Origin: a virus
Direction: 5' to 3' (one strand)
DNA length: 42,788 bases
IMG/VR virus record: IMGVR_UViG_3300048447_000068
Location: 1-42,788 of that record
Below are positions 7,101 to 42,237 of this stretch, piece after piece. Position numbers and translations under genes: made by a program. The stretch's first letter is position 1, and each line of letters begins with the position of its first letter. The notes under the pieces were generated by a model that had not been told where the DNA came from, did not search any database, and saw nothing but the letters and a program-made list of their open reading frames with translations.

Positions 7101-10067
7101 TGTTTTGCGTTTGGTAATGGTGTAGAAAGTTACAAGATATTAGATTCAATTGTAGGCAAGACTAAAAATATAGGCGAGCGTGTAACCTCTACCTCTAACA
7201 TGGACTACAAAGAGTCACATAGGTTTGCTGATTTAACATATAGTGGGGTTTATAACGATGAGACCAACGTAAATAAACTAAACGAGTTCAACCTAGGTCT
7301 TCTTAATTTTAAACCATTAGAAGACTCTTATGGCCCTATTCAATTACTAGACGGAAGAAAAACAGATATACTTACTTTACAAGAAGACAAGATATCTTAT
7401 GTGTTGGCTGGTAAAAATTTACTTAGTGATGCAACTGGGGGAGGAGCAGTGACTTCTGTTCCAGAAGTATTAGGCACACAAATAGCAAGATTAGAGGATT
7501 ACGGTATTAGTGAAAACCCGGAGAGTTATGCTTCATACGGACCTAACAAATATTTTACAGATGCCAAGCGTGGAGCGGTAATAAACTTAATAGGTGGAGC
7601 GTATAACAACGAACAGCTTCAGGTTATATCAGAGGCTGGTATGCGCTCGTGGTTTAGAGACCTTTTCATTGATACCTTTACTACTCAAAAAATAGGAGGG
7701 TTTGACCCCTACATGAACGAATATGTTTTACATTCTAATGTTCAATTGCCACAGCCAGTTGTAGAATGTGTAGACTGTAACTCTACAAAAAACATTACAA
7801 TAAACCCAGCAACCACCTTTACATATTGTGTAAATGTTGGAGATTTATTAGGAATAGTAGATATAGACTTTACAATTCCTACTGGAGGGTTTACTGAATT
7901 AGTGAGTGAGCTTAATGATAATATCGTCAGTGAAAGGTTGTCTGATGAAATAGTTTCGGAAAACGACAACTCAACTACTGGATATACTATAACGGCAACA
8001 TATAATGGGGTATCACATACTACAGGAACAGTATACGATAGCGGAACTTTATCCTTTAACAAGAACGATGTAAATACTGATACTGTAGAGATATCGGTAA
8101 CTCAAGACAGTACTGTTGCAAGTATTATTGACATTACAACTTCTTGTCCTGATGCTCAAACAATAACAATTATAAGTGTTGCTGTGACAAGTAATTCAGA
8201 TGCCGGAGACTTTATAACAAATGAGTTTAGATGGACTGATGGAACATTTACATCTCCAACAAAAACATATCCAAGCATTGAGTTTTCATCTGGAACAAAC
8301 GCTCCGATTGTATCGTTATACAATCAGGTAACGGGTCAACAAGGAGGTGGATTTATTCCTGGAGATGCTGCTAATGTTTCTATTATCAGCAGAAAAAGCA
8401 ATATTGATAATTTTAATTTTAATATTAATAAAAACAAATTAAAATATTTAAGAACTAATACATACTACAGCAATACAGGAACGGATATAAACGCATTGTT
8501 AACCGCCGCTACTGATGCCACGCCTATAGTTGCTCAAACAAATCCAACTCAATTTGTTGCAGACTTTATCATGCCTTCAGGGGGTAGTTTCTTGTATTTA
8601 GTTTGGGACTATAGAGAGTCAACTAGCGCTGAATTGTGTCATTCAATAACAAGTAAATCAGACGCTTGTACTGGATGTACATTTACACCCACTCCTACTC
8701 CTACTCCTACTCCTACGCCTATAACATCTTATAGATGGCTTATTGAGTCTGGCTCAGGTAGTGGAACTAGTCCATCTACTTGTCCGTTTGCGACAGTGCC
8801 ATTATATAGTTCGTCTAGCTCATTTAACACTACATTTGCTAATAGCACATTGTTCTATACAGATGCAGCTTTAACAACAATATTCCAAGGGGGAGATAAT
8901 TATTTCGGTGTGAGACAACCAAACCAAGGGTATGGAATATCTCAGGGTATATTTAGAATGACAGATTTAGGAACTGCCTCAAATATTGACACAACTGGTG
9001 TTTGTAGTTCAACACCGACTCCAACACCGACGCCTACTCCAACTCCTACTCCAACGCCTACACCTACTCCTGGCAATTCACTGCTTTTATGGAGAAATCC
9101 TTTTAGCGGACAAAATCCACCAGACGGATTTTCTAGTGCTTCAGACGCTTGTAATTTAAATGCTAATAGCACGATTGTATACTTTACTCAAGCCGTAACT
9201 GATTGGGATGATGTTGTAAATAATAATTTAGTTGTTTATCTAAATGGCGCAACAAGTGTTCCATACCAAGGGCGAAGCACATATTACAGAACGCAACAAG
9301 CCACTAATACAGGAAAAACATTTTTACTAGATAATTCAGGGGTTGTAAGCAATTACGCTGTTTGTGGAGCTACTCCTACTCCAACGCCTACTCCTACTCC
9401 AACACCGACGCCGACTCCAACTCCAACGCCTACGCCTACGCCTAGCCCTAGTGATGTTTGGCAAATAAACTATCAAGCTGGAGCTGGAGGAGGATGGAGC
9501 ACTATATCTCAGTCTTGTGGTCAAAATACATTAAATATATATGTTGGGTTAACTGGTCCAAGTGGAGCAATAACCACTCAAGCTCAATTAGATACGGCTT
9601 ACTCTAACGGAGACACAATAATTGTTATGCAAGGTGGAAATACATTTATAGGAGCTAACGCATATTACGGCATTGCTATAAGCGTTAACCCATCTGGGAC
9701 AGCTCCTGGAATGACAGTACGGATTGATGCAGCAGGAAGATTAGTTGATTTAGGAACTTCATACTACTCAAGCTGTTTACAAGAATTTACAATGACAGCT
9801 CTAAATACTTATTGGAGCAGTTATTTAGACGCTTGTAATAATGGGCCTACTTCCGCAACACAAACATATTATCACAGTGGTTCTTCTTTATGTTTGTCTT
9901 CTGCTAATACTGTATATATGGATAGCAGCAAAGCTCAAACGATAGCAGATGCTACATCAACTTTTGGTAAAGTTTGGTATCAAGGTTCCTCATGCGGAAC
10001 TGGAGCTGGTCAAGGATTAGAATTTAACCCTTCAGGTGGATATGTATACGGAATAGGAACTTGTTAA
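4191..10067 (+). CDS. Giant tail protein with Pro-Thr linkers
   Basis: A 1958-residue virion protein. The N-terminus carries DERLVPNGEYIDALNVR followed by SEVGSVENSKGN (residues 18-52), which resembles podovirus tail-stabilisation or tail-hub proteins. Residues 50-1490 are largely beta-rich. The C-terminal 460 residues are modular. Pro-Thr tracts at 1499-1510, 1608-1627 and 1728-1753 separate modules of about 90-110 residues, each ending at a Cys with a preceding pattern of Tyr-Asp, Phe-x-Gly, Tyr-Tyr/Phe-Gly. A fourth module follows without a tract. Related modules occur in the proteins at 10078 and 13845. The C-terminus is probably the exposed host-binding part, and the Pro-Thr tracts are extended linkers that may be hydroxylated and glycosylated by the enzymes encoded just downstream. 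The PT codons are synonymously varied, so the repeat is kept at protein level. Confidence 0.75.
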   Translation: MANIQRNFIAGRMNKSLDERLVPNGEYIDALNVRLGSTEGSEVGSVENSKGNTILTTLMFDNIELSNNARCIGAFEDGANETIYWFVHDPAFIASPTTKLDLIVSYNTNTANTTYNVISANDGTNLNTTLNFSPYHLITGVNLIDDLLFFTDNLNPPRYININRSYIAPSSAPSYFDGFSPEALLVIKRPPIAAPTIQTLNLQGQQDDFLEERFISFAYRYKYSDNQYSATSQFSEDAFTPSSFNFSYNSYLNEGMKNTKNAAIITFNTGSSLVTGVELLFKESTTNNIKVIEFLDKSTLGYSDNTDYTYTFDDRKIFTLLPDSEILRLYDNVPKIAKAQTVMGNRLVYGNYKEGYDLKDKFNQDLRLEFFASLNSTVIATSDLIDSTGPGYYSIGPTPSTINNSIVFFDLSNQDGTTLELTAGSSITLDFTIVHSQFTGTTPGATTSNVDIVFDYTLPTYFPNAYSLATSTDFIEKIGTIANIQTVTDACNGTTLTDQVNCALPSTLGTYTKTASGISNTGEPIAIIASPASNTIGLQLIAMNYVDGANNAYEFYEVNSATASFRNTDTARSLHSNRGYEVGIVYMDEFNRSSTALVSPNNTIQIPCANSINKNELQVTIPPQQLAPSWATRYKLVLKPTETTYDTIYSSIYFKDPGSNATYFLLEGENANKVEEGDRYFVKSDSNGPILRCVEATVLEKENKSADFITPSNGSAVPSGTYMKINPNNFSTVREADDIITPGSKTELQDTANQYPILAYPMNTAPVSPSTTYTDYDVPAGSRIVISIRQERLGPGKGNGKCERRISELNVELVSSTTYDNMQDWWNGDNVEAVLEDAVTEVGGNTGSISNVYEPATAATKTDISTAEGTNYYKFFRDSVTNELALLITGTVRCGGTLSREKRRSTVTADIQIYRADSIIAFETQPTDALDNVWYENHLSFNVSADGIHSGNVQTQTSSLPAIIDTEFSDCFAFGNGVESYKILDSIVGKTKNIGERVTSTSNMDYKESHRFADLTYSGVYNDETNVNKLNEFNLGLLNFKPLEDSYGPIQLLDGRKTDILTLQEDKISYVLAGKNLLSDATGGGAVTSVPEVLGTQIARLEDYGISENPESYASYGPNKYFTDAKRGAVINLIGGAYNNEQLQVISEAGMRSWFRDLFIDTFTTQKIGGFDPYMNEYVLHSNVQLPQPVVECVDCNSTKNITINPATTFTYCVNVGDLLGIVDIDFTIPTGGFTELVSELNDNIVSERLSDEIVSENDNSTTGYTITATYNGVSHTTGTVYDSGTLSFNKNDVNTDTVEISVTQDSTVASIIDITTSCPDAQTITIISVAVTSNSDAGDFITNEFRWTDGTFTSPTKTYPSIEFSSGTNAPIVSLYNQVTGQQGGGFIPGDAANVSIISRKSNIDNFNFNINKNKLKYLRTNTYYSNTGTDINALLTAATDATPIVAQTNPTQFVADFIMPSGGSFLYLVWDYRESTSAELCHSITSKSDACTGCTFTPTPTPTPTPTPITSYRWLIESGSGSGTSPSTCPFATVPLYSSSSSFNTTFANSTLFYTDAALTTIFQGGDNYFGVRQPNQGYGISQGIFRMTDLGTASNIDTTGVCSSTPTPTPTPTPTPTPTPTPTPGNSLLLWRNPFSGQNPPDGFSSASDACNLNANSTIVYFTQAVTDWDDVVNNNLVVYLNGATSVPYQGRSTYYRTQQATNTGKTFLLDNSGVVSNYAVCGATPTPTPTPTPTPTPTPTPTPTPTPSPSDVWQINYQAGAGGGWSTISQSCGQNTLNIYVGLTGPSGAITTQAQLDTAYSNGDTIIVMQGGNTFIGANAYYGIAISVNPSGTAPGMTVRIDAAGRLVDLGTSYYSSCLQEFTMTALNTYWSSYLDACNNGPTSATQTYYHSGSSLCLSSANTVYMDSSKAQTIADATSTFGKVWYQGSSCGTGAGQGLEFNPSGGYVYGIGTC

Positions 10068-10077
10068 ATATAAAAAA

Positions 10078-10875
10078 ATGGCAACACTAGGAACATATTA
10101 TTTTGATACAGCGAGTTTCGCAAATGCAACAACTATTTATGATGATGCTGATTTAACAGTGGTATCTGCCAATGGTTTTTATTCTGACAACTCTATAGTC
10201 AGAGAACAGGTAAGCGGAGTATTATTTGCTGGGCAATCTTGTACAGTACCTACGCCTACGCCTACGCCTACGCCCACTCCTACACCTACGCCCACTCCAA
10301 CACCTAGTCCGACACCTGGGCCAACGCCTACTCCAACGCCTACTCCAACGCCAGGGCCAACGCCAGGGCCAACGCCTTCGCCTAGTCCATCACCTAGTCC
10401 ATCACCTGTTCCTAATCAGTATCAGATACAAAACTGTAGTAGTGGGCTTCAAGAAAACGTATCACTACCACAAGCGGTTAGTGTTGGCTCTTCTATTCAA
10501 TGGCAGTCTGTATGTTGGGAAGTTATGGGAGCGCCTACGGGAACAACTCAGGCTATATCGCCACAAGGTTATTTTACCAATTGTACAGATTGTCAGCCTA
10601 CGCCTAGTCCTAGCCCTACGCCATCGCCTAGTCCGACTCCCACGCCTCTGCCGTGTTATGCTAGTCAGTTAAAGTGGAATCCACTTGCTGTTTGTAGCGG
10701 TGCGTCTGGAACTTATTATATAGACTTTAGTAATTTCTGTACGGCAACTAAACTATACACTGATGCACTTTGTACGCAGTTAGCTCCGAGCGGATACTAC
10801 ACAACTTTTGGTTTTCCAGGAGAATATAGATTTTGGGATGGAACTGGATTTACGACATTTTGCTCTAACTGCTAA
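10078..10875 (+). CDS. Pro-Thr/Pro-Ser-rich modular virion protein
   Basis: A 265-residue protein starting 10 bases after the giant tail gene in another frame. It opens with a short module (GTYYFDTASFANATTIYDDA to AGQSC, residues 5-55). Then come a long TP/SP/GP tract (about 58-112), a Cys-rich module with QNC, VCWEV and ISPQGYFTNCTDC (113-172), a second SP/TP tract (174-193), and a last module echoing the first (GTYYIDFSNFCTATKLYTDA to FTTFCSNC). The duplication within the protein and the match to modules at 4191 and 13845 mark it as part of one adhesin-like family. There is no signal peptide. It likely assembles at the tail tip as an accessory fibre or adhesin. It could be a detached C-terminal piece of the preceding gene, but it has its own ATG. 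Confidence 0.7.
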   Translation: MATLGTYYFDTASFANATTIYDDADLTVVSANGFYSDNSIVREQVSGVLFAGQSCTVPTPTPTPTPTPTPTPTPTPSPTPGPTPTPTPTPTPGPTPGPTPSPSPSPSPSPVPNQYQIQNCSSGLQENVSLPQAVSVGSSIQWQSVCWEVMGAPTGTTQAISPQGYFTNCTDCQPTPSPSPTPSPSPTPTPLPCYASQLKWNPLAVCSGASGTYYIDFSNFCTATKLYTDALCTQLAPSGYYTTFGFPGEYRFWDGTGFTTFCSNC

Positions 10876-10907
10876 TAATTTAGTACCTTGTACTTAAATT
10901 AAATTAA

Positions 10908-12050
10908 ATGAAAGAAATACACGACTTTTTAACACAAGAGGAGTGTGATGGTTTGATTAAGTTAATAAATAAAAACCATGTCCCCTCCACTGTTGTTTCT
11001 CAAGGAGATGAGTTTAGCGTACAAGATAAAAGCAGAACTTCTAGTACATCTAATTTAGACCATTCCAATACTTTAGTAAAAAGCATACATGAAAAAATAT
11101 CTAAATATTTAGGACTAGATATTTCAAACGGAGAAAACCTTCAAGGGCAACTCTACGAGCCTGGACAATATTTTAAACCACATCATGATTTTTTTAGCGG
11201 AGCGGCATATGATATGCATTGCTTGGATAAAGGAAACAGAACCCATACCTTAATGATTTATCTTAATGATGACTTTGAAGGTGGTGGCACTAACTTTCCT
11301 AGAATGAATACCATATTACAGCCAAAGAAAGGAAAAGCAGTTACTTGGCAAAATATGATAAATGGTAGAACTCAAGAAAATACATTGCACGAGGGGATGC
11401 CTGTTACTAGCGGTAAAAAATATATTATTACATCTTGGTGGAGAGAGGGTAAGCCACAGTCGCAAAAAATACAAAGAGTAGAAAGTAGACCGCAATTGCC
11501 TCAATTAACCGAAAAGGGATTTGATGTTGTCAGAGTTCCAGAAGATACATGGAATTTAATACAAGATACTTACCAGCTTTTGAAAGACAAGGTTGAGCCA
11601 GAGGTGTTTGAAGGTAAAGAAGACTTTATAAAAGGAGACAGTGAGCTTATATCATACGACCACATACCACATATAAGAAATTTAATACACAACCAGCTCC
11701 TGCCTATACATAGAGACTTTGCGGGTGTAGATATAGAACCATCAGCTATGTATGGAATAAGGTCTTACTTGAGAGGCTCATCGTTAGTCGAACACACAGA
11801 CAAGGTGGAAACACACCATGTATCGTCATCAATACTTGTAGATAAAGATTTAAGATGTGGATGTCAACATAAAGATAATGGAGACGATTGGGCTTTTGAT
11901 ATACAGGGGTATGATGGAGACTGGTATAAAGTATACCTAGAGCCAGGTGATATGATAGTATATGAATCCGCTCTCTGTGTTCACGCAAGAAAAGAGCCTT
12001 TTCAAGGAACATACTACAGAAACTTTTTTGCTCATTATAAAATTATATAA
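10908..12050 (+). CDS. Tandem 2OG-Fe(II) dioxygenase, prolyl-4-hydroxylase-like
   Basis: A 380-residue protein with two predicted iron/2-oxoglutarate oxygenase halves. The first half has YEPGQYFKPHHD (metal ligands H92 and D94), a strand EGGGTNF, the distal His in TLHEGMPV (H161) and the 2OG-binding Lys in SGKKYIITSWWRE (K170/K171). This is the classic prolyl 4-hydroxylase layout. The second half has GIRSYLRGSSLVEHTDKVETHH (H296, D298), LEPGDMIVYESALCVHARK (H359) and YYRNFFAHY (R371), like a little-studied algal/marine dioxygenase family. It would hydroxylate peptidyl proline in the cytoplasm. It sits between Pro-Thr-rich virion genes and overlaps the radical SAM gene by one base (TAATG). The fold call is firm; the Pro-Thr substrate is inferred. 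Other possible substrates include host proteins. Confidence 0.85.
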   Translation: MKEIHDFLTQEECDGLIKLINKNHVPSTVVSQGDEFSVQDKSRTSSTSNLDHSNTLVKSIHEKISKYLGLDISNGENLQGQLYEPGQYFKPHHDFFSGAAYDMHCLDKGNRTHTLMIYLNDDFEGGGTNFPRMNTILQPKKGKAVTWQNMINGRTQENTLHEGMPVTSGKKYIITSWWREGKPQSQKIQRVESRPQLPQLTEKGFDVVRVPEDTWNLIQDTYQLLKDKVEPEVFEGKEDFIKGDSELISYDHIPHIRNLIHNQLLPIHRDFAGVDIEPSAMYGIRSYLRGSSLVEHTDKVETHHVSSSILVDKDLRCGCQHKDNGDDWAFDIQGYDGDWYKVYLEPGDMIVYESALCVHARKEPFQGTYYRNFFAHYKII

Positions 12051-12958
12051 TGATAAACTTTATACAGATAGACCCTAATGGCTTGTGTAATGCAGGGTGT
12101 TGGTTTTGTCCTGTGTCTTTAGTTGGCAATCCTAAAGAACATATAAATCAGATGCCTCCTGAACTCTATGAAAATATAATAAAACAAATACACGAACTAA
12201 AAGGAGATTTAATAAATCCAAACTTGCATTTTGTTTACGCATCACATTACAATGAGGTATTACTTTATAGGTATTTTGAACAGATGTTACAGACACTCCA
12301 AAAGTACAGCCTTACTTTGTGCGTACTAACAAATGGAGTTCCTCTTACTCCAAACAAGGTAGACCTTATAAATAAATATCCAGGTGTAGTATCGCAGATT
12401 GCTATCAACGCTCCTGTTTACGAGAAAAGATTGTTTTCAAAAAGAACAGGAATGAAAGAGGTTTTGTTTGATAAGTTAATCTCTAATATAAAATATGCAG
12501 AAGAAAATTTACACAATCCTAATGTTTTGCTTCTGCAAATAAATGGTATTAACGAAAGGTCTAACATAATTAAAAAAGAAAAATTTCCAGAGCTAGAGCC
12601 AGATGAATTTAAACACCAGGTAAATATAGCTAAACTTATTTTTCCAAACATAAGGATAACGGAGCAGTGGAATCTTATAGATAGAGCTGGTCTAATGGAT
12701 GATGTAATGGAAAGTAAATTGCCTAGCGGAAATGTAATAGGGTGTTCTACTAAAAGAGATACAGAGTGGCTTCATGTTAGTCCAAAGGGAGAAGTATTTT
12801 TGTGTTGTAATGACTATCATATGGATTATACTTTTGGAGATTTGAACACATCGTCATTAAAAGAAATATGGATGAGCGATAAGCGTAAAAGAGTTTTACA
12901 GACTGCTTTTAAAAGTATCTGCACATCTTGTTCATCAGCAATATTTGAAAATGCATAA
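12050..12958 (+). CDS. Radical SAM enzyme with SPASM-like C-terminus
   Basis: A 302-residue protein with CNAGCWFC (C13, C17, C20), the CX3CX2C loop that binds the [4Fe-4S] cluster and S-adenosylmethionine. A TIM-barrel-like region follows (LHFVYASHYNEV, LTLCVLTNGVPL, VVSQIAINAP). The C-terminus has CSTKRDTEWLHVSPKGEVFLCC, FGDLNTSSLKEIW and CTSC, the layout of a SPASM or twitch auxiliary-cluster domain. Such enzymes usually modify peptides or small molecules. It is coupled to the oxygenase before it (one-base overlap) and the glycosyltransferase after it (8-base overlap). This suggests a role in the same modification route, either altering the peptide or making a sugar or cofactor. The exact substrate cannot be read. 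Confidence 0.85.
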   Translation: MINFIQIDPNGLCNAGCWFCPVSLVGNPKEHINQMPPELYENIIKQIHELKGDLINPNLHFVYASHYNEVLLYRYFEQMLQTLQKYSLTLCVLTNGVPLTPNKVDLINKYPGVVSQIAINAPVYEKRLFSKRTGMKEVLFDKLISNIKYAEENLHNPNVLLLQINGINERSNIIKKEKFPELEPDEFKHQVNIAKLIFPNIRITEQWNLIDRAGLMDDVMESKLPSGNVIGCSTKRDTEWLHVSPKGEVFLCCNDYHMDYTFGDLNTSSLKEIWMSDKRKRVLQTAFKSICTSCSSAIFENA

Positions 12959-13820
12959 GAGTATAATTGTCAGCATTGCATCGTATAAAGATGTAGATAT
13001 AGTAAATACTATTGTAGATTTATACAAGAGAGCAGAGTTTCCATCTCGTGTTTTTGTAGGATTATTTTTACAAGATACGCCAGAAGAAATATCAAGGATA
13101 TGTGGTTACTTTTCAAACTTTCCGTATAAAGAAAATCTTAAAATTAAAACCATATTATTTGAAGAGGCTAAAGGTTGTGGGTGGGCTCGCAATATTATAT
13201 TAAAGGAGCTGTATGACAATGAGGATTATTTTATGTGCGTAGATTCTCATTCTAGGTTTTTAAAAAAATGGGATAGTGTTTATATAGAAGCTTATAAGCG
13301 CGCTCCTGCAAACTCAGTAATAAGCGCTTTTCCGCAATCATTTGATTTTAATGAAACATACGAGCAATATACCAGGAGAAGTATAACTACGATATATACT
13401 CCAAATGCTTTGCCCTGGACAAATAGTTTTAGGCATCCCCATTGTCAGAAACCAACCACAGAGGCATATGAAAAAGTAATGTCTATCTCTGGCGGTAATA
13501 TTTTTGGAGACACAAGGTTGGCAAAAGCAATTACTTTAGACGACTATAGCTTTGTTCACAATAAAGAGCAAGAGATATATTCGCTTCTTATATACTTATA
13601 TGGTTTAGATATATATGCAATACCTCAAAATATAGTGTGGCATAAGTATATTGTTCAAGATTCTTACAGAGATATATTTAGCCCTAACCAAATAAAATAT
13701 AACACAGATTTTTTAAGTTTATTAAAAATAAAAGAAACCCACAGAACAGTAAAAGAATGGGTTGAGCTGATACAAAGGGATTGTGATGCGTGTGAAAAGA
13801 CAAAGCAATTAAATTCGTAA
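12951..13820 (+). CDS. GlcNAc-transferase-like glycosyltransferase (PF11397/GT60-like)
   Basis: The ATG at 12951 gives 289 residues; the upstream in-frame codon at 12945 is TTG. Motifs characteristic of the Skp1-type GlcNAc transferase family appear in order: IVSIASYKD (6-14), FPSRVFVGLFLQ (30-41), AKGCGWARN (73-81), and EDYFMCVDSHSRFLKKWD (91-108) with a DSH metal/nucleotide-sugar motif. These are followed by SISGGNIFGD and a later NKEQEIYSLLIYLYGLDIYAIP then VWHKY. Known members include Dictyostelium Gnt1, which adds GlcNAc to hydroxyproline after a prolyl hydroxylase has acted. Here it is translationally coupled to a prolyl-hydroxylase-like enzyme and lies beside Pro-Thr-rich virion genes. 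The donor sugar and acceptor are inferred. There is no signal peptide or membrane segment. Confidence 0.8.
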   Translation: MHKSIIVSIASYKDVDIVNTIVDLYKRAEFPSRVFVGLFLQDTPEEISRICGYFSNFPYKENLKIKTILFEEAKGCGWARNIILKELYDNEDYFMCVDSHSRFLKKWDSVYIEAYKRAPANSVISAFPQSFDFNETYEQYTRRSITTIYTPNALPWTNSFRHPHCQKPTTEAYEKVMSISGGNIFGDTRLAKAITLDDYSFVHNKEQEIYSLLIYLYGLDIYAIPQNIVWHKYIVQDSYRDIFSPNQIKYNTDFLSLLKIKETHRTVKEWVELIQRDCDACEKTKQLNS

Positions 13821-27507: not shown

Positions 27508-27975
27508 TCATACATCGTTGGTTTCTAGCTCTTTGAATGTTTTATATGTTTTAGGAGATGTATGTTTTAGTTTATGTAATAAGAAAGCATACCTACCCCT
27601 GAGCTTTCTATGTTTAGCTTCAAGCTCTTTATAGGCTGATATGTAAAACTTTTCTTCGCTAACATCAGTTGTGAATGGAAATGATTTAGGGTTTAACCGA
27701 ACTAGATTGTCTACTTTTTCTTCTAAGTTAGCATAAATACTTTTCATGTTGGTGTCGTAACTCATCCAATTACGAAGGCTTTTTAGGGCGTGTAAAACTG
27801 TTGCGTGGTCCTTGTCTAGTGTTTTTGATATGTCAGATAGAGTCATTCTTCCTTTTTCTCTAAGCAACATATAGTACATGGCTCTAGCCTCAACATACTC
27901 TCGCCTTCTTGTTTTTCTTATTAATTGTAAATTAAACTCTGATTCAACTAAATTTTTAATTAATTCTACGCACAT
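27508..27975 (-). CDS. DnaA domain-IV-like DNA-binding protein (first)
   Basis: 155 residues. Residues 23-68 (RRREYVEARAMYYMLLREKG, then MTLSDISKTLDKDHATVLHA) reproduce the helix-turn-helix and signature helix of the C-terminal DNA-binding domain of bacterial DnaA. This includes the DHxTVxHA signature that contacts the DnaA box. No AAA+ ATPase precedes it, so it is a stand-alone binding domain with an unknown C-terminal part (about 75-155, with a basic coil KELEAKHRKLRGRYAFLLHKL). It could mark an origin, compete with host DnaA, or act as a regulator. It is one of two such proteins in the window. Confidence 0.8.
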   Translation of the reverse strand: MCVELIKNLVESEFNLQLIRKTRRREYVEARAMYYMLLREKGRMTLSDISKTLDKDHATVLHALKSLRNWMSYDTNMKSIYANLEEKVDNLVRLNPKSFPFTTDVSEEKFYISAYKELEAKHRKLRGRYAFLLHKLKHTSPKTYKTFKELETNDV

Positions 27976-35494: not shown

Positions 35495-35891
35495 GTTGAT
35501 TTAATTTTTGTGTTATTTTATAATATTTATTTAAAGTACTCTTTCTAGTGTCTTTCAAAAAGCCTATGTACTTGGAGTTGTTTCTGCCATTGATTTCATC
35601 TTTCATTTTTGTTTCAATGACATCAAGTCGCTCCTTGTATTTCACTAGTGCTAATTTACAAACACCTACTACCCACCCAAATTCAAAGAAGATATTGTAC
35701 TCATCCTCCTCTAGTTCTTTGTAGTAGTCTCCACCTTTCGCAGTATTAAATATCTGTATTGAGTTGTCTTCGTGGTTTCTTACTATCTTGATTCCATAAG
35801 ACATCCTCGCATCGTATTCATTACCATCTAGGTTTGTAGTCGCGTGGTCTTCTACTGCTTCTTCGTAAACATCGTGTAGTTCACTATACAT
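35484..35891 (-). CDS. Hypothetical early protein
   Basis: The ATG at 35891 (MYSELHDVYEEAVED) gives 135 residues and an 8-base overlap with the DnaA-like gene. A longer reading from 35957 would overlap it by 74 bases. The N-terminal part is acidic, the middle has an aromatic stretch (EDEYNIFFEFGWVVGVCKLA), and the C-terminus is basic and helical (YIGFLKDTRKSTLNKYYKI). The family is not recognised. Confidence 0.5.
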   Translation of the reverse strand: MYSELHDVYEEAVEDHATTNLDGNEYDARMSYGIKIVRNHEDNSIQIFNTAKGGDYYKELEEDEYNIFFEFGWVVGVCKLALVKYKERLDVIETKMKDEINGRNNSKYIGFLKDTRKSTLNKYYKITQKLNQHEN

Positions 35892-36192
35892 CAGCAGTAA
35901 TAACTTCAAGGCGAGGAATAATTTCTTTGTAGTCTTCGCTCTGTTCAATCCTCTCATTCATCTTCTGTATACCTCTTAGGATATTAGAGTGATGAATGTT
36001 GTAGTTGTTCTTCTCTAAAAATCTTTGGATAGATGCGACAGGTATGCCCCTCTTATTACAAAGATAAAAGAAGAGTTGTCTCTGCTCTAGACTATCATAG
36101 TCTCTTGCTCCAGAAAATAATTCGCTCTGGCTTATACCAAAAAATTGAGTGATGTTGTCTATGTAAGACTGAAAGATTTGTCTCTTATTCAT
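35884..36192 (-). CDS. DnaA domain-IV-like DNA-binding protein (second)
   Basis: 102 residues. FGISQSELFSGARDYDSLEQ then RQLFFYLCNKRGIPVASIQRFLEKNNYNIHHSNILRGI follows the DnaA domain-IV pattern: a basic loop, a helix, a turn, and a signature helix with HHSNILRG in place of DHTTVLHA. It is encoded on its own, with no ATPase domain, and overlaps both neighbours by a few bases. Together with the protein at 27508 it gives the phage two distinct DnaA-box-type binding domains. The role could be origin recognition or transcription control. Confidence 0.7.
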   Translation of the reverse strand: MNKRQIFQSYIDNITQFFGISQSELFSGARDYDSLEQRQLFFYLCNKRGIPVASIQRFLEKNNYNIHHSNILRGIQKMNERIEQSEDYKEIIPRLEVITADV

Positions 36193-37244: not shown

Positions 37245-38297
37245 TTAAAATTTATTAAAGTGTGTAACATCATTCTCTGTAAACCATCCATCACACCCTG
37301 TGCAATGGTAGTTGTTGAATCCATCGTACTCTAGGTCGTGGAAACAATCAATGCATATCGGAGACTCATCCTCCAATGGCACATCATCAAAGCTAAACTG
37401 ATTGCACGTTGGCAATACCTCTTCCTCTCTTTCGAATAGGTACGAGCGTAATGGTGCTTGACTATATGACTCGTGGTATACCTCCCCCTCGCTCGTATGA
37501 GTTCGGTTGAAGTATATCCAACAAGTGTATCGCTTACCCTTGGCAAGTATCTCTGTTTGCTTTCGCTCGTAGAAGTTGGGATGCCCCTCAAGGCTATCTA
37601 AGTCCCTTAGCGTGTCGTTTGATACACTAAAGATATCTACCTCTACGTTGTACCCCTTACCCTCTCTCTCGATGAGATATGGAAGTCCCTTGACAACAAG
37701 AGGATACTTGTTAGCAGTTACACCACTAGCAATGTGGTTTGAAGTTCTAAGGTAGCGTTGGTAGTTGGAGTACCCTTTCTTTAGAGTTCCGTATACTGCA
37801 ACAAGATTGTCTTGCAGTACGTTGGTCTTGGAGTACCACACACCATCTCTATGAGTGTAGAGATGCTTGTTGTAAATCTGAAACGAGCGAGTGCGAGTGT
37901 TGATTGTAACAAACCTACAGTCGTACTTGGCTAGTGATTTCTTCCAAGTCTGTCTCGGCACAAGTCCTAGCTTGTTGGCTAGTACCTTACTATCACACAT
38001 CTTGTCATTGCCAAGTCCCTTGATAGTTCCGTTCATCATCAGCAGTTCATCAGAGTTGTTGCCACATACAAATGGATGCGTGTTCTCTCTGTTTACTGCA
38101 CCAACAGTTGCATACCTAAAGTGTGCAATGAATGGTCTGTCTGTGTCTAGGAGTTTGTACTCCTTAGATTTGTGGTAGGATACCTTATAAGTATCTAACC
38201 AAACAATGCCTAGTCCGTGAGGATTAATCCTCGCTGAGTTCTTGAGGATGTCCATTGGAATGGCATTGGTCTTTTGTTTGATAATAATAATACACAT
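37245..38297 (-). CDS. GATase-II / gamma-glutamylcyclotransferase / zinc-ribbon fusion
   Basis: A 350-residue three-part protein. Residues 1-160 form a class II glutamine amidotransferase (Ntn hydrolase): nucleophile C2 directly after Met, HFRYATVGAVNRENTHPF (59-76) and LLMMNGTIKG (85-94). Residues 165-285 form a gamma-glutamylcyclotransferase/AIG2-like domain: VAVYGTLKKGYSNY (167-179) and LDSLEGHPNFYERK (233-246), whose Glu in LEG is the catalytic acid. Residues 315-335 hold a CxxC-x13-CxxC zinc ribbon. The first part would release or transfer ammonia from glutamine-like amides; the second would cleave gamma-glutamyl amines. With the amidoligase at 40639 it fits a glutamyl-ligation and removal system. 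It is driven by its own promoter. Confidence 0.85.
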   Translation of the reverse strand: MCIIIIKQKTNAIPMDILKNSARINPHGLGIVWLDTYKVSYHKSKEYKLLDTDRPFIAHFRYATVGAVNRENTHPFVCGNNSDELLMMNGTIKGLGNDKMCDSKVLANKLGLVPRQTWKKSLAKYDCRFVTINTRTRSFQIYNKHLYTHRDGVWYSKTNVLQDNLVAVYGTLKKGYSNYQRYLRTSNHIASGVTANKYPLVVKGLPYLIEREGKGYNVEVDIFSVSNDTLRDLDSLEGHPNFYERKQTEILAKGKRYTCWIYFNRTHTSEGEVYHESYSQAPLRSYLFEREEEVLPTCNQFSFDDVPLEDESPICIDCFHDLEYDGFNNYHCTGCDGWFTENDVTHFNKF

Positions 38298-38351
38298 AGT
38301 TTTATGTTTGTGAGGAGTGCATTGGTCTACACTGACCTCGATTAATAATCA

Positions 38352-38383
38352 CAAAGATAACACATTATTCGCACACTACCAAA
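38352..38383 (-). promoter_or_regulatory. Early promoter P38a (TTTG-N20-TAnnTTTG)
   Basis: On the - strand TTTG (38383-38380), a 20-base spacer and TATCTTTG (38359-38352). The spacer shares GGTAGTGTG and ATGTGT with the sister promoters. It lies 54 bases before the GATase-II fusion gene's ATG. Confidence 0.85.
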
Positions 38384-38393
38384 TTTATTGTAT

Positions 38394-38423
38394 AAAAAAA
38401 GAGAGCCATTTCTGACTCTCTCT
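38394..38423 (-). terminator. Terminator after DUF3846-like gene
   Basis: On the - strand AGAGAG pairs with CTCTCT (38416-38421 and 38400-38405) around a ten-base loop, followed by T residues. It closes the single-gene unit of 38474 and immediately precedes promoter P38a. Confidence 0.8.
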
Positions 38424-38473
38424 TGTATGTATGGAGGAATGCCTATCATAAATCAGCATTTCATCTCGAGATT

Positions 38474-38839
38474 CTATCTCACGTCTGAGTCCTCCATAGA
38501 TTGTTCTAGTCTGTTTACTTGCTTTGCAAGTTTTAAACTTGCCTCAAGTAATTTATACTGTTGTTCCGATTCACATCTGAACAATACGTTCCCCAATACC
38601 TCTTGGTTTTCAAAAAGGTATCTGTCAAATACATTTGCATTTCTAAAGTAAAGAGTAGCTAGGGTGTTTACGGGGAGTGAATTTAAAAGTCCTTCCTCAT
38701 TAATATAAGCAGTCATACCCTCTTCTAAAGATACAAGTTGAATTAACCCTCCTACTGCCTTCTGCTTATTTTTCAAGCCTTCAGCATTGTAGCCTGAAAC
38801 AATTGTCGAATCCGATTTAAGTAAAATATAATAAGTCAT
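38474..38839 (-). CDS. DUF3846-like protein
   Basis: The ATG at 38839 gives 121 residues; the longer reading starts at GTG. VGGLIQLVSLEEGMTAYINEEG, then LPVNTLATLYFRN, matches the core of DUF3846 proteins, which are small early proteins of phages and plasmids with no known activity. The C-terminal half is a charged helix with YKLLEASLKLAKQVNRLEQ. It forms a unit by itself with promoter P38b and its own terminator, so its level is probably set separately. Confidence 0.7.
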   Translation of the reverse strand: MTYYILLKSDSTIVSGYNAEGLKNKQKAVGGLIQLVSLEEGMTAYINEEGLLNSLPVNTLATLYFRNANVFDRYLFENQEVLGNVLFRCESEQQYKLLEASLKLAKQVNRLEQSMEDSDVR

Positions 38840-38882
38840 AACATATGATGCTCCTAACACCTTGAATTAGTTAAACAAAGCA

Positions 38883-38914
38883 CAAACATAACACATTGTT
38901 TACAAACTACCAAA
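38883..38914 (-). promoter_or_regulatory. Early promoter P38b (TTTG-N20-TAnnTTTG)
   Basis: On the - strand TTTG (38914-38911), a 20-base spacer and TATGTTTG (38890-38883). The spacer shares GGTAGTTTG and ATGTGT with P38a and P36. Two dyads lie 20-65 bases upstream. Confidence 0.85.
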
Positions 38915-38934
38915 TATATTGTATTTTATTTTAG

Positions 38935-38954
38935 AGTGTCGTTGCAAAGACACT
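38935..38954. promoter_or_regulatory. Dyad AGTGTC-N8-GACACT, candidate operator
   Basis: Inverted repeat with 6-bp arms AGTGTC (38935-38940) and GACACT (38949-38954), upstream of promoter P38b. It is one of five such dyads in the right half of the window. Confidence 0.55.
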
Positions 38955-38960
38955 ATTGGG

Positions 38961-38978
38961 AGTGTCGTTGGCGACACT
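38961..38978. promoter_or_regulatory. Dyad AGTGTC-N6-GACACT, candidate operator
   Basis: Second dyad, 7-bp arms AGTGTCG and CGACACT with a four-base centre, six bases from the first. It sits between the preceding terminator and promoter P38b. Confidence 0.55.
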
Positions 38979-38985
38979 ATTGCAT

Positions 38986-39013
38986 AAAAAAAGGGAGACA
39001 TCTCTGCCTCCCC
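38986..39013 (-). terminator. Terminator of first early unit
   Basis: On the - strand GGGAG pairs with CTCCC (39008-39012 with 38993-38997), followed by seven T residues. It contains a 19-bp stretch identical to that in the terminator at 36448-36466. Confidence 0.75.
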
Positions 39014-39035
39014 TGACTAAAAACAAAACAAAACA

Positions 39036-39314
39036 TTAGGACAATCCTAAAAACCTCGCTACTACATATAACCCTATCATTAGTGTCATCTGTACTCCCA
39101 TCATTATAGCACCCATCTTTAGAATGGTTGTATCTGATGTTCTAGCTTTCTCTTCATTGATTGCCTGTCCGACATTCCAATAGGTTCTTCCTTGGTAGTG
39201 AACAGGTCTTACAATGGCTTTGCCATTCTCGTTTGTCTTTCTTGATTTGATTAATAAATCTCGGAGTTCTTTGTCCTCGATTTTGTTGGCTAAATAATCA
39301 GTTTCAAAATTCAT
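39036..39314 (-). CDS. Small membrane-anchored protein
   Basis: 92 residues. A polar N-terminus (about 1-63, with KELRDLLIKSRKTNENG and YQGRTYWNVGQAINEEKA) precedes one transmembrane helix (ILKMGAIMMGVQMTLMIGLY, about 64-88). It probably sits in the host inner membrane with its N-terminus inside. It is the last gene of the first early unit. The function is unknown; host takeover or superinfection control are possibilities. Confidence 0.6.
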   Translation of the reverse strand: MNFETDYLANKIEDKELRDLLIKSRKTNENGKAIVRPVHYQGRTYWNVGQAINEEKARTSDTTILKMGAIMMGVQMTLMIGLYVVARFLGLS

Positions 39315-39344
39315 AATATAAATATTAGTTAAACGATTTTAATC

Positions 39345-39554
39345 CTAATCGTTATAAGGAGTTTTAAATCTATAGGTCTGATATGTTTCAGCAATAGACT
39401 TGTTGAAATCTAGTACACGCTCTCTGTATTTTTTATCGGTACAAAATTTCTTCATGGCATGGACGCTAGTCTGTCCGTGGTCACTTCCATAAGTTTCTTC
39501 GAATTGTGCTATCTGCTTTAGCTTTGCATCTAGCATTTGTTTACTTAGTTTCAT
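39345..39554 (-). CDS. Small hypothetical protein
   Basis: 69 residues, basic and helical (MLDAKLKQIAQFEETYG; MKKFCTDKKYRERVLDFNKSI). No known motif. It lies in a string of small early genes. Confidence 0.5.
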   Translation of the reverse strand: MKLSKQMLDAKLKQIAQFEETYGSDHGQTSVHAMKKFCTDKKYRERVLDFNKSIAETYQTYRFKTPYND

Positions 39555-39566
39555 AGGTTCTGCAAG

Positions 39567-39707
39567 TTATATAAATTTTTTATTATCCAAGGTATTATCC
39601 TTCAAGACTTTAGGTTTTTGCCCTGTCTCTGTTTCTGTCTGTCGAGACAATCTACCCTGCATTTTTTGCAGGGTAATTGCTCGTTCCCATCTCGCTCTAC
39701 TGCTCAT
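39567..39707 (-). CDS. 46-residue basic protein
   Basis: ATG at 39707, stop TAA at 39567. It begins MSSRARWERAITLQKMQGRL and ends in a Lys/Asp/Asn-rich tail. The ATG overlaps the end of the upstream gene by 11 bases, and the ORF fills what would otherwise be a gap. This supports it being real. Its codons include a perfect 9-bp inverted repeat (39653-39675), so its mRNA may fold there. Confidence 0.4.
   Translation of the reverse strand: MSSRARWERAITLQKMQGRLSRQTETETGQKPKVLKDNTLDNKKFI
39653..39675. repeat. Perfect 9-bp inverted repeat inside small gene
   Basis: TACCCTGCA (39653-39661), five T, TGCAGGGTA (39667-39675). It is within the 46-residue ORF. On the - strand the hairpin has an A-rich loop and no T run after it, so it is not a normal terminator. 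It may be an RNA element or a protein-binding site. Confidence 0.5.
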
Positions 39708-39912
39708 CGCTTTGGCTTCTTAGATGTTGGTTAGAAAGATGTTGTATGTACTTGTCTTTAAAGTAAACTTCAATAACAACCCATAAATGGAGATTTTTTC
39801 TCGCCCATCTATCTGCATCTGCTTCTGTAATAAATCTTCTTACTTCGCCTTTTTGCTTGGCTATTTCTAGACTCGCTTCGTTCAGCACAATATAAACTTT
39901 GGTTGTTTTCAT
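39697..39912 (-). CDS. Small hypothetical protein
   Basis: 71 residues: YIVLNEASLEIAKQKGEVRRF then ITEADADRWARKNLHLW, an alpha/beta pattern with a central ADADRWARKN helix seen in many small phage proteins. It overlaps its upstream neighbour's stop by four bases. The function is unknown. Confidence 0.5.
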   Translation of the reverse strand: MKTTKVYIVLNEASLEIAKQKGEVRRFITEADADRWARKNLHLWVVIEVYFKDKYIQHLSNQHLRSQSDEQ

Positions 39913-40229
39913 AACGCTTGTATTAATTGTTCAACATCAGTCAAGTTGTAGTGCTTGACCTTTACTTTGTTCCAGCCGTTGCTTGGAATTGATATGCCAT
40001 AGTTCTTCCTCACGCTAGTAAGTGCTGATTGTATCGCATTGTCGTTGGTATGATACCATCTCACTCTGCCATTTGCAGTAGTTCTAACACCCTTTCGAGT
40101 GCGTTTAAGGAATCCTATGCCTAAGCTATCAGCAAAGGCTATGAATCCATCGTTGATGTACACATTGGTGTACGCATAGACTGAGTACTTCTTTCGCGTC
40201 AATCTGTTGGTCAAATCTAATTGTGTCAT
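39909..40229 (-). CDS. Small basic hypothetical protein
   Basis: 106 residues, strongly basic (RLTRKKYSVYAYTNVY; FLKRTRKGVRTTANGRVRWY; NGWNKVKVKHYNL). The charge suggests nucleic-acid binding, but no fold is recognised. The ATG overlaps nothing upstream and follows a TTAATAC leader. Confidence 0.5.
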   Translation of the reverse strand: MTQLDLTNRLTRKKYSVYAYTNVYINDGFIAFADSLGIGFLKRTRKGVRTTANGRVRWYHTNDNAIQSALTSVRKNYGISIPSNGWNKVKVKHYNLTDVEQLIQAL

Positions 40230-40233
40230 AGTA

Positions 40234-40341
40234 TTAATTATTTAAAAATTCTATTATTACTTCTTGTTGTTGTGGTGACAAATCACCAAAGCTTACACCA
40301 TATGTATTATATGCTGAGTTGTTTAGTCTATCTATATTCAT
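40234..40341 (-). CDS. 35-residue hypothetical protein
   Basis: ATG at 40339-40341, stop TAA at 40234-40236: MNIDRLNNSAYNTYGVSFGD, then LSPQQQEVIIEFLNN. It fills the gap between the genes at 40229 and 40346 and has the same AAGATTATG start context as its neighbours. The LSPQQQEVIIEFLN end looks like a folded helix. Probably real, unknown role. Confidence 0.4.
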   Translation of the reverse strand: MNIDRLNNSAYNTYGVSFGDLSPQQQEVIIEFLNN

Positions 40342-40345
40342 AATC

Positions 40346-40528
40346 TTAATAATATTTGTTAAACATAGATTTGATTTGACTAAGTATTGCTATCTGTTCG
40401 GGTTCAGAATAACATTTATTTCTCATTTCCTCATAGATATCAGCTATAAGTTCAGTAGCACGCTCTTGTGCTATCTCTCTTTCTTTTTTATCTCGTTCTG
40501 TATATTTAGATGCGTGGTGTACACTCAT
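40346..40528 (-). CDS. Small charged helical protein
   Basis: 60 residues, almost entirely helical and charged (ERDKKEREIAQERATELIAD, then SEPEQIAILSQIKSMFNKYY). No known family. It starts in the usual AAATATTATG context. Confidence 0.5.
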   Translation of the reverse strand: MSVHHASKYTERDKKEREIAQERATELIADIYEEMRNKCYSEPEQIAILSQIKSMFNKYY

Positions 40529-40559
40529 AATATTTAATTTAAATTAATGTTTCTGTTTC

Positions 40560-40571
40560 GACCTTTTGGTC
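40560..40571. repeat. Short hairpin GACC-TTTT-GGTC
   Basis: Perfect 4-bp arms around TTTT. It is the first of three inverted repeats in the 110-base gap 40529-40638. Confidence 0.3.
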
Positions 40572-40578
40572 TCATCAG

Positions 40579-40596
40579 CATAGGCACACACCTATG
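40579..40596. repeat. Inverted repeat CATAGG-N6-CCTATG
   Basis: Perfect 6-bp arms (40579-40584, 40591-40596) in the same gap, next to the 18-bp palindrome. It might be part of a structured leader or a regulator site. Confidence 0.4.
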
Positions 40597-40606
40597 GACA
40601 GAGGAT

Positions 40607-40624
40607 AGTGTCTTTAAAGACACT
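40607..40624. promoter_or_regulatory. Perfect 18-bp palindrome AGTGTCTTTAAAGACACT
   Basis: An uninterrupted self-complementary site between the amidoligase gene stop and the next small gene. It shares AGTGTC/GACACT arms with the dyads at 38935, 38961, 41734 and 41764. As a perfect palindrome in noncoding DNA it is a likely binding site for a dimeric regulator. Confidence 0.6.
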
Positions 40625-40638
40625 ACCCTTTGCTTACA

Positions 40639-41544
40639 TCATCGGATAAACTCCTCGATGCTACTAGATATTGTACCATCCTTGACAAACTTGTAGAAGT
40701 CTTTCGCAAGGTTTAGTATCATAATAGTCTTGGCAATATCCCCCTCGTACATAGAAAGGATAATAGGCTTTACCTTATTGAGTAAGGTACTGAATCTACC
40801 ATTGGGATTCTCGATGCTGAAGTCAACAATCTGATATATCAGTTCGTATCTTCTGAACATCTGCTTGTAGCTAGTAATACGATTAGGCACTCTAAACTCT
40901 AGGCAGTTGTTCTTAGCTAATGCTATCTGATACTTTCTATCCCATCCATTGAAATGGTTTAGTCTATTAGGATTTCCATCGGCAAGTATGTTAGAATATG
41001 GTTGCATACGCAGGTTATGTCGCACATAACCATTCTTTAGTCTCTTACGGAATAAGGCTAAAAGGATAGATGCATTGAGTCTTACTTTCTCGTTTAACTC
41101 TTGACCACACATCTCATTCACACCAATAGTGATATGACCTCCACACCTTAGGTTGCTAGGGCTACGCTCATCATCCATAATACCTTTAGCTTTGAAAATC
41201 ATATCGAAGATTTTGTTCCTCCATTGGCTAGGAGGAAGTAAAGGTAGGATGTTAGTCACAGCTTCTACACCACAGCTACCATCTCTTTCGTAGCCTTGGA
41301 TAAGGGCATACTCTTTACGAGTACCCCTACCAAATTCTGATTTCTCAATCTCGAATCCAATGGTATAGTTACTGCGATAGTTAGCTACTCGTAGCCCTAC
41401 GTTAGTTACTTTGGATTTGATGTTCTTCACATCAATCTCAGTCGCTCCATAGCTATGGTCTAGTACACTAGGCTTGTTATGGTAGCGATTCATACGAGAA
41501 CGTGATTGTTCTCCAGTTGTTGTGTATGTAATACCTTTTTTCAT
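40639..41544 (-). CDS. Amidoligase (glutamine-synthetase-like COOH-NH2 ligase)
   Basis: 301 residues with the amidoligase (PF12224-type) signature. TIGFEIEKSEF (61-71) carries metal/ATP-binding Glu. YERDGSCGVEAVT (85-97) has the DGS-E motif. NLRCGGHITIGV (131-142) is the C-G-x-H strand. NNCLEFRVPN (212-221) is the closing EFR. These proteins have a glutamine-synthetase-like ATP-using core and join a carboxyl to an amine. Comparative genomics has linked them to GATase-II and AIG2-like cyclotransferases, as found 3 kb away in this window. The acceptor is unknown: a peptide, a host protein, a metabolite or modified DNA base are all possible. The first 55 residues are basic and Ser-rich. Confidence 0.8.
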   Translation of the reverse strand: MKKGITYTTTGEQSRSRMNRYHNKPSVLDHSYGATEIDVKNIKSKVTNVGLRVANYRSNYTIGFEIEKSEFGRGTRKEYALIQGYERDGSCGVEAVTNILPLLPPSQWRNKIFDMIFKAKGIMDDERSPSNLRCGGHITIGVNEMCGQELNEKVRLNASILLALFRKRLKNGYVRHNLRMQPYSNILADGNPNRLNHFNGWDRKYQIALAKNNCLEFRVPNRITSYKQMFRRYELIYQIVDFSIENPNGRFSTLLNKVKPIILSMYEGDIAKTIMILNLAKDFYKFVKDGTISSSIEEFIR

Positions 41545-41565: not shown

Positions 41566-42237
41566 TTATTGTAATTGTTCAGTTAAAAATGCTATTGCAC
41601 TACGGATATCATCGTGACAATTGGTAGTAACCAATCCCTCGCTATGACTGTATCGTACAGATACGTTACCACTATCAGCCTTGAAAGACAAAGTGAAAAT
41701 AGTATCGCTAGTAGACTCAGTAGCATCTTCAGTAGTGTCCTCAGCGACACTATCATCTTCAATAGTGTCCTCAGCGACACTATCAGCAGTAGCTTGCAAA
41801 TCAGCTACGTTTACATCTTCATTCTGAGCATAGGCTTTAGCAAATTGGTTTAAAGACTCAATAGATATCTTGACCTTTTCGCCACTATCCTGCAAATGCT
41901 TGCATTGTCTTTCGAAGATTTCGACCACATCCTCAGCTACATTGCTAGCCTTGATACACTTGTACATCCAAGGTTTTTGGCATTCGAATACTTTGTCAGC
42001 CAATTCCTCAGCAGTCCATACGATGCCTTGGTCAGCAAATAGTAACTGTGTCTCAGGCTTGTCAAACCATTCTTTAGCCTCTCGCATCAAGGTAGCCATC
42101 TCTAACTGCTTTCTGAATTTAGTACGTTCAGCAGTCTTGATAGATTTCTGTAAGGATTTAACCTTAGTCAATTGCAAGCCATCTTTGACTGCATCCGAGC
42201 CTAAAAGCCCTGTCTCAATTTCTAGTAGATTTCTCAT
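41566..42237 (-). CDS. First early gene, unknown, with acidic repeat
   Basis: 223 residues, first gene after promoter P42. The N-terminal 140 residues are helical and charged (LTKVKSLQKSIKTAERTKFR; EMATLMREAKEWFDKPETQL; WTAEELADKVFECQKPWMYK). Residues about 150-175 form an acidic linker with tandem DSVAEDT units. The C-terminal 45 residues are a small beta-helix domain (FTLSFKADSGNVSVRYSHSE to AIAFLTEQLQ). The linker DNA contains two copies of the AGTGTC/GACACT dyad at a 30-bp interval. Its position suggests an immediate-early role. The family is not recognised. Confidence 0.6.
   Translation of the reverse strand: MRNLLEIETGLLGSDAVKDGLQLTKVKSLQKSIKTAERTKFRKQLEMATLMREAKEWFDKPETQLLFADQGIVWTAEELADKVFECQKPWMYKCIKASNVAEDVVEIFERQCKHLQDSGEKVKISIESLNQFAKAYAQNEDVNVADLQATADSVAEDTIEDDSVAEDTTEDATESTSDTIFTLSFKADSGNVSVRYSHSEGLVTTNCHDDIRSAIAFLTEQLQ
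41734..41781. repeat. Two AGTGTC-N6-GACACT dyads, 30-bp period, in coding DNA
   Basis: Dyads at 41734-41751 and 41764-41781, each reading AGTGTCCTCAGCGACACT, encode the repeated SVAEDT peptide on the - strand. They have the same arms as the three noncoding dyads, so they may be both codons and binding sites, or a chance result of codon repetition. Confidence 0.5.

Follow-up and report, generated by a model that had tools for sequence, protein, structure and literature searches.

What reaction might a tailed phage carry out with an amidoligase and, encoded close by, a single protein in which two domains predicted to cleave gamma-glutamyl groups are joined to a zinc ribbon? The question is raised by positions 37,245 to 41,544 of IMG/VR virus record IMGVR_UViG_3300048447_000068, a 42.8-kb sequence from an uncultured tailed phage that was analysed over its full length of 42,788 nucleotides (the window). 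We lean slightly towards reading the two genes as a gamma-glutamyl-amide modification system of phages pared down to its minimal core, related to the cassette known in other phages as 'peptidoglycan modification' but reduced and fused. The features on which this reading is built are as follows.

37245..38297, minus strand: predicted fused class-II glutamine amidotransferase (GATase-II), gamma-glutamylamine cyclotransferase (GGACT) and zinc-ribbon protein, 350 aa; recognised from domains, conservation and structure matches
37818..38297, minus strand: domain 1, residues 1-160, putative class-II glutamine amidotransferase of the N-terminal nucleophile (Ntn) type with Cys2 as nucleophile; from invariant residues and structure
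37449..37808, minus strand: domain 2, residues 164-283, predicted gamma-glutamylamine cyclotransferase (AIG2-like); from PF06094 and structure
37260..37376, minus strand: domain 3, residues 308-346, putative Cys4 zinc ribbon (CxxC-x13-CxxC); from the conserved Cys residues
40639..41544, minus strand: predicted amidoligase, a glutamine synthetase (GS)-like COOH-NH2 ligase of a new subfamily, 301 aa; from motifs, an AlphaFold model and hhalign

The initial annotation had described one protein combining a C2-type GATase-II, a YGTLKKG/LEGHP cyclotransferase and a four-Cys ribbon, and this composition was confirmed by motifs, domains and folds. The protein starts with Met-Cys2, carries YGTLKKG and LEGHP, and has cysteines at Cys315/318/332/335. 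Residues C2, R61, N89, G90, D102, Y169, G170, T171 and E237 are invariant in 35/35 fused homologues. The GGACT domain was detected by PF06094 at 77.5 bits (E=1.6e-21, cut-off 22.8), and it matched the mouse and human GGACT structures (1vkb/3jub) with Z of 17.6/17.4 at ~32-34% identity. The Pfam score, the YGT loop and the catalytic Glu all fit the assignment of residues 164-283 to a GGACT/AIG2-like domain. Fold, loop and Glu are shared with the human and mouse enzymes; GGACT stands alone in animals, whereas the phage domain, a predicted cyclotransferase, is fused. The best structural matches of the GATase domain were EgtC (4zfk, Z 11.0) and the GlmS glutaminase (1xff, Z 10.6). EgtC, a GATase-like gamma-glutamyl amide hydrolase of ergothioneine biosynthesis, shares with this domain the Ntn hydrolase fold, Cys2 and the lack of a synthase domain, but it has no cyclotransferase or ribbon and serves another pathway. 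By the fold and by Cys2 together with the Arg, Asn-Gly and Asp set, residues 1-160 are predicted to be a class-II GATase.

The ribbon cysteines C315, C318, C332 and C335 are invariant in the 28 aligned members (alignment A4). In three relatives (L028, L029 and L030) the ribbon is found between GATase and GGACT instead, so that domains have been shuffled within one family and the ribbon is mobile yet retained. The domain order of the window protein is identical in 96 protein records, a count in which some contigs were entered twice.

For the ligase gene, the amidoligase motifs listed in the initial annotation were all recovered in the minus-strand translation: GFEIE at residues 63-67, DGSCGVE at 88-94, CGGHI at 134-138 and LEFR at 215-218. 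Within the motifs GxExE, DxSCGxE, CGGH and ExR, residues E65, E67, D88, E94, H137, E216 and R218 are invariant in 30/30 aligned ligases. Loss of catalytic residues in relatives, named beforehand as a finding that would tell against the pathway, was thus seen in neither protein family. Nothing in Pfam matched the window ligase, and PF12224 (Amidoligase_2) gave no match to the 30 ligase members at E<=1 or in six-frame searches of the relatives; the same searches recovered the ligase of C75C1 as a positive case (E 8e-30). The AlphaFold model, with a predicted local distance difference test (pLDDT) score of 91, matched YbdK (1r8g; Foldseek E 5.4e-4, Z 9.1), many entries for glutamine synthetases (Z ~8.5) and E. 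coli gamma-GCS (1va6; Z 7.5), and in BFVD many phage 'amidoligase enzyme' models (E ~1e-7). A Z of ~8 is weak taken alone; among the matches listed, the enzymes consistently belong to the GS superfamily and the catalytic motifs coincide. When the ligase family was aligned by hhalign with PF12224-type ligases, E was 3e-7, or 4.9e-8 with a fuller set (an unrelated control profile gave 0.57), and GFEIE was paired with GIELEF, D.SC.VE with D.SL.EL, CGGHI with CGxHxH and EFR with EFR. A remote relative in L119 connects directly to the ligase family (E 1.5e-15). Because GS-superfamily fold matches, coinciding catalytic motifs and the profile-profile alignment agree, 40639-41544 is predicted to encode an amidoligase that shares its fold with glutamine synthetase and γ-glutamylcysteine ligase, in a subfamily beyond the reach of PF12224. 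A known defence or counter-defence family was rejected as an alternative identity, the partial PADLOC matches being weak (JetB E 0.0018, CARF E 0.0086) and taken as chance. In one relative (L059 407-1279) the amidoligase is broken into two open reading frames (ORFs) by a frameshift, stop or sequencing error, and the downstream fused gene is intact.

Co-occurrence in related phages, which the initial annotation had asked to be checked, was found in both directions. With the fusion as query, the ligase lies upstream in 29 of 32 contigs, and the other three end within 1-2.2 kb. With the ligase as query, the fusion was found 0.8-4.9 kb away in 65/66 phage contigs with at least 5 kb of downstream sequence (gap 828-4876 bp among the 65 relatives); these phages are related, so the events counted are not independent. 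The sole exception is L119, where a second amidoligase adjoins an unfused GATase. This contig belongs to the same clade, and its positions 7016-10897 encode two amidoligases and the unfused GATase with C-terminal CxxC pairs; GGACT was not found in L119. A similar amidoligase/GATase pair is present in L150. Ligase identities among the relatives drop to ~35%, and the pair stays while the intervening genes vary; a 223-aa gene, a DnaA-like gene and an exonuclease accompany it. The ratio of nonsynonymous to synonymous substitution rates (dN/dS), determined for close pairs, was 0.03-0.18 for both genes. Both are under purifying selection, and chance ORFs are ruled out by conservation, dN/dS and folds.

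How does the pair compare with known systems? In LUZ24-like, phiEco32-like and RIO-1-like phages, amidoligase(s), GATase-II, ATP-grasp and GGCT are each encoded by a gene of their own, in a cassette termed 'peptidoglycan modification' that may, on comparative grounds, block superinfection (PMC3890496, PMC5498523, PMC11945000, PMC10580990). In the full cassette (phiEco32, LUZ24/UFV-P2, RIO-1/PSA-HP1, CW02), as in the window, amidoligase, class-II GATase and GGCT/AIG2 stand together in the early or replication region (PMC3890496, PMC5498523). There, GATase and GGCT are separate and are joined by an ATP-grasp and a second COOH-NH2 ligase, whereas in the window one protein unites GATase, GGACT and a zinc ribbon. 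ATP-grasp and COOH-NH2_lig (PF14395) were not found in the window, three siblings, C75C1 or MW202828; both were detected by the same searches in the full-cassette controls MW202615 and Slicky01. The window is a fragment, and its full-length relatives agree with it on this point. Since the core trio of amidoligase, GATase-II and GGCT is encoded together and the two further enzymes went undetected, the window system is classed from its gene content as a reduced, fused form of the cassette, with the same core but not a full member.

Other phages show further arrangements. In C75C1 (OQ984151) and relatives, a GATase-GGACT fusion 42% identical to that of the window lies downstream of an amidoligase; it is without the zinc ribbon, and the ligase falls in PF12224 (E 3.5e-30), unlike the window's subfamily. 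Fusion and PF12224 ligase were found together in 10/12 C75C1-like contigs, the other two ending too early. This pairing with a different ligase subfamily is independent support for the link between fusion and ligase. MW202828, an uncultured podovirus from Manatee Spring in the same clade, has a ligase 40% and a ribbon-bearing fusion 57% identical, and shares the DnaA-like, exonuclease and primase synteny of the window; GroES and ThyX are additionally encoded. In the OM43 phages MEP401/402 (Zobellviridae), the amidoligase directly overlaps the GATase-II gene (PMC10580990); the GATase is without GGACT, and a Cys-rich segment is found on the amidoligase instead. In MEP401 (L040 1063-2709) this ribbon-like segment (CTECNVKC...CVDC) precedes the amidoligase that overlaps the GATase gene. 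Metal-binding modules thus recur on either partner, the ribbon of the window being on the fusion.

The following mechanism would be consistent with these domains. With ATP, the GS-fold amidoligase would form an amide bond between a carboxylate, most likely a glutamyl gamma-carboxyl, and an amine on a peptide of the host, probably a precursor of the cell envelope. The Ntn GATase domain, to which no synthase is fused, might then hydrolyse a gamma-glutamyl amide as EgtC does, or free ammonia from glutamine for the ligase. The GGACT domain would cut off gamma-glutamyl groups as 5-oxoproline, freeing the amine. In the fused protein the two activities that cleave gamma-glutamyl bonds would be kept together in one place, with the zinc ribbon probably serving to position a partner protein or the substrate. 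By analogy with the literature on the full cassette, superinfecting phages may be excluded or the envelope protected during infection. The proposal of the initial annotation that one enzyme ligates and the other removes is chemically consistent with all this, the reaction itself being predicted from sequence and models. YbdK, gamma-GCS, glutamine synthetase and GmaS act on the glutamate gamma-carboxyl; all four are among the solved-structure matches of the ligase, which favours gamma-carboxyl chemistry.

The reduced-cassette reading draws on the folds and invariant residues, the near-universal linkage despite variable genes between, the C75C1 pairing and purifying selection, and also on other phages in which ligase, GATase and GGCT are unfused neighbours, and on the literature about them (PMC3890496, PMC5498523, PMC10580990). 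Several points weigh against it. As ATP-grasp and the second ligase went undetected, the three-linkage scheme published for peptidoglycan cannot operate here in its published form. In Pfam the GATase domain scores below threshold (GATase_4, 20.5 vs 23 bits; GATase_6, 19 vs 27 bits). The shared modelled fold does not settle which carboxylate or amine would be used, and the envelope peptide is a candidate substrate. Both genes lie within the replication block, the zinc ribbon could also mean a nucleic-acid or replication-protein target, and the host is uncultured.

In one of the alternatives, which appears unlikely, the pair carries out glutamine-dependent amidation: the GATase makes ammonia, the ligase amidates a carboxylate as MurT/GatD do on peptidoglycan glutamate, and GGACT trims gamma-glutamyl by-products. 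A ligase/GATase pair that amidates peptidoglycan is established in S. aureus (PMC3267633), and here a GATase-II with the complete glutaminase residue set and a GlmS glutaminase match (Z 10.6) almost always accompanies a GS-fold ligase. The folds of MurT/GatD are unrelated, however, an ammonia channel between two separate proteins would need a complex, and the choice of GGACT as fusion partner of the GATase is left unexplained. Quite unlikely, in our estimate, is modification of a protein or nucleic acid, in which the ligase would modify a DNA base, or a protein of host or phage, with a gamma-glutamyl group or an amino acid, the fused enzyme would remove this group and the ribbon would bind the target. 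Peptide modification of proteins was reportedly proposed for some amidoligase families by Iyer in 2009. The location among replication and recombination genes and a ribbon conserved and moved within the protein suit this alternative, but C75C1-type fusions have no ribbon, and the location is weak evidence because many podoviruses have the cassette in the midst of genes for DNA metabolism (PMC5498523). For DNA hypermodification in particular, the usual genes were not recognised in the larger ORFs of the window and of the sibling's remaining 18 kb, small ORFs being scanned in part; the nucleic-acid target put forward in the initial annotation is thus unsupported.

A related possibility, to which still less weight is given, is a two-gene gamma-glutamyl writer/eraser in which the target of the fused enzyme, with both removal routes (hydrolysis and cyclisation) and a targeting ribbon, is a specific protein of the host or of replication and not the cell wall. 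Improbable, finally, is a phage gamma-glutamyl cycle in which the trio makes and recycles a small gamma-glutamyl metabolite, such as a redox thiol or an amine store. The ligase fold is that of YbdK and gamma-GCS, the GATase resembles EgtC of ergothioneine synthesis, and GGACT acts on gamma-glutamylamines; the ORFs scanned, however, contained no recognisable oxoprolinase, second ligase or transporter, and the zinc ribbon would have no obvious role.

Between and around the pair, two further features were recorded.

38474..40528, minus strand: six small variable ORFs between the pair, at 38474-38860 (DUF3846), 39036-39314, 39345-39554, 39697-39912, 39909-40229 and 40346-40528
41566..42237, minus strand: conserved 223-aa protein directly upstream of the ligase, with a homologue in 81/89 loci

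None of the six intervening ORFs is shared as widely as the ligase/fusion module. For the 223-aa protein no significant Pfam or PHROG family was found. In 56/89 loci a conserved family of ~54-aa proteins (example ...YFNVYYGKVCVWSIVAHTKWEAIDKAYYKFIEKHPKLERKKFDA...), a possible partner or substrate, is encoded directly upstream of the fusion at a distance of ~270 bp. It was considered as a peptide substrate encoded between the genes, but no homologue clustered from the window. Two separate small proteins resemble the DnaA C-terminal DNA-binding domain (27508-27975 and 35884-36192, both minus strand), and in 82/89 loci a homologue of the latter lies close to the fused gene.

Virion genes occupy 1-25893 on the plus strand, and replication genes the minus strand. 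Within the virion block, three overlapping plus-strand genes (10908-13820) encode a 2-oxoglutarate (2OG)-Fe(II) oxygenase (PF13640), a radical SAM protein with SPASM (PF13186) and a GlcNAc-type glycosyltransferase (PF11397, E 5.7e-35), the last from a family that presumably includes the Skp1 hydroxyproline GlcNAc-transferase; they possibly hydroxylate and glycosylate a virion or surface protein. With window bases 1-25000 as query, no near relative was found among GenBank phages. In a 59-kb sibling contig, IMG/VR 3300020403_000009, the fused protein is 99% and the ligase 85-89% identical. Sibling genomes encode an M15 peptidase, a possible endolysin, and GroEL (L122 9165-9623 and 17783-19405).

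The host is probably a member of Bacteroidota, since a GGAGG-like ribosome site is almost never seen (A/T-rich sequence precedes the start codons), the primase has a BT4734-like domain, and the two genome-collection matches were a Flavobacteriales and a Cytophagales metagenome-assembled genome (MAG), the binning of a phage contig into a MAG being weak host evidence. The fusion was rejected as an ordinary bacterial protein: among 395 genomes of the same phylum, it was complete only on a phage contig, the rest matching the GATase or the GGCT part. In plasmids, nothing covered 80% of the fused protein.

The suggestion that the fusion may be new holds for its description and not for its occurrence. 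GATase-GGACT fusions are present in ~100 viral contigs and are already deposited in two GenBank records (MW202828 and C75C1), both labelled solely 'gamma-glutamyl cyclotransferase'; in MW202828 the ligase is annotated as hypothetical. No paper describing the fusion was found in the open-access literature, most subscription papers being beyond the reach of that search.

The locus is a conserved, real variant of a cassette already known in phages. Guesses at the substrate of phage amidoligase/GATase/cyclotransferase cassettes go back to 2009, and in the open-access literature searched no experiment testing the substrate or action on peptidoglycan was found. Here the cassette is cut to a pair of proteins whose catalytic sites are intact; nearly every member of a large group of uncultured phages has the pair, placed beside replication genes. 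This form suggests that longer cassettes could do without their ATP-grasp and second ligase. Because the cassette is reduced to two proteins, its core chemistry, one ligation and two types of γ-glutamyl removal, would be approachable with two purified proteins.

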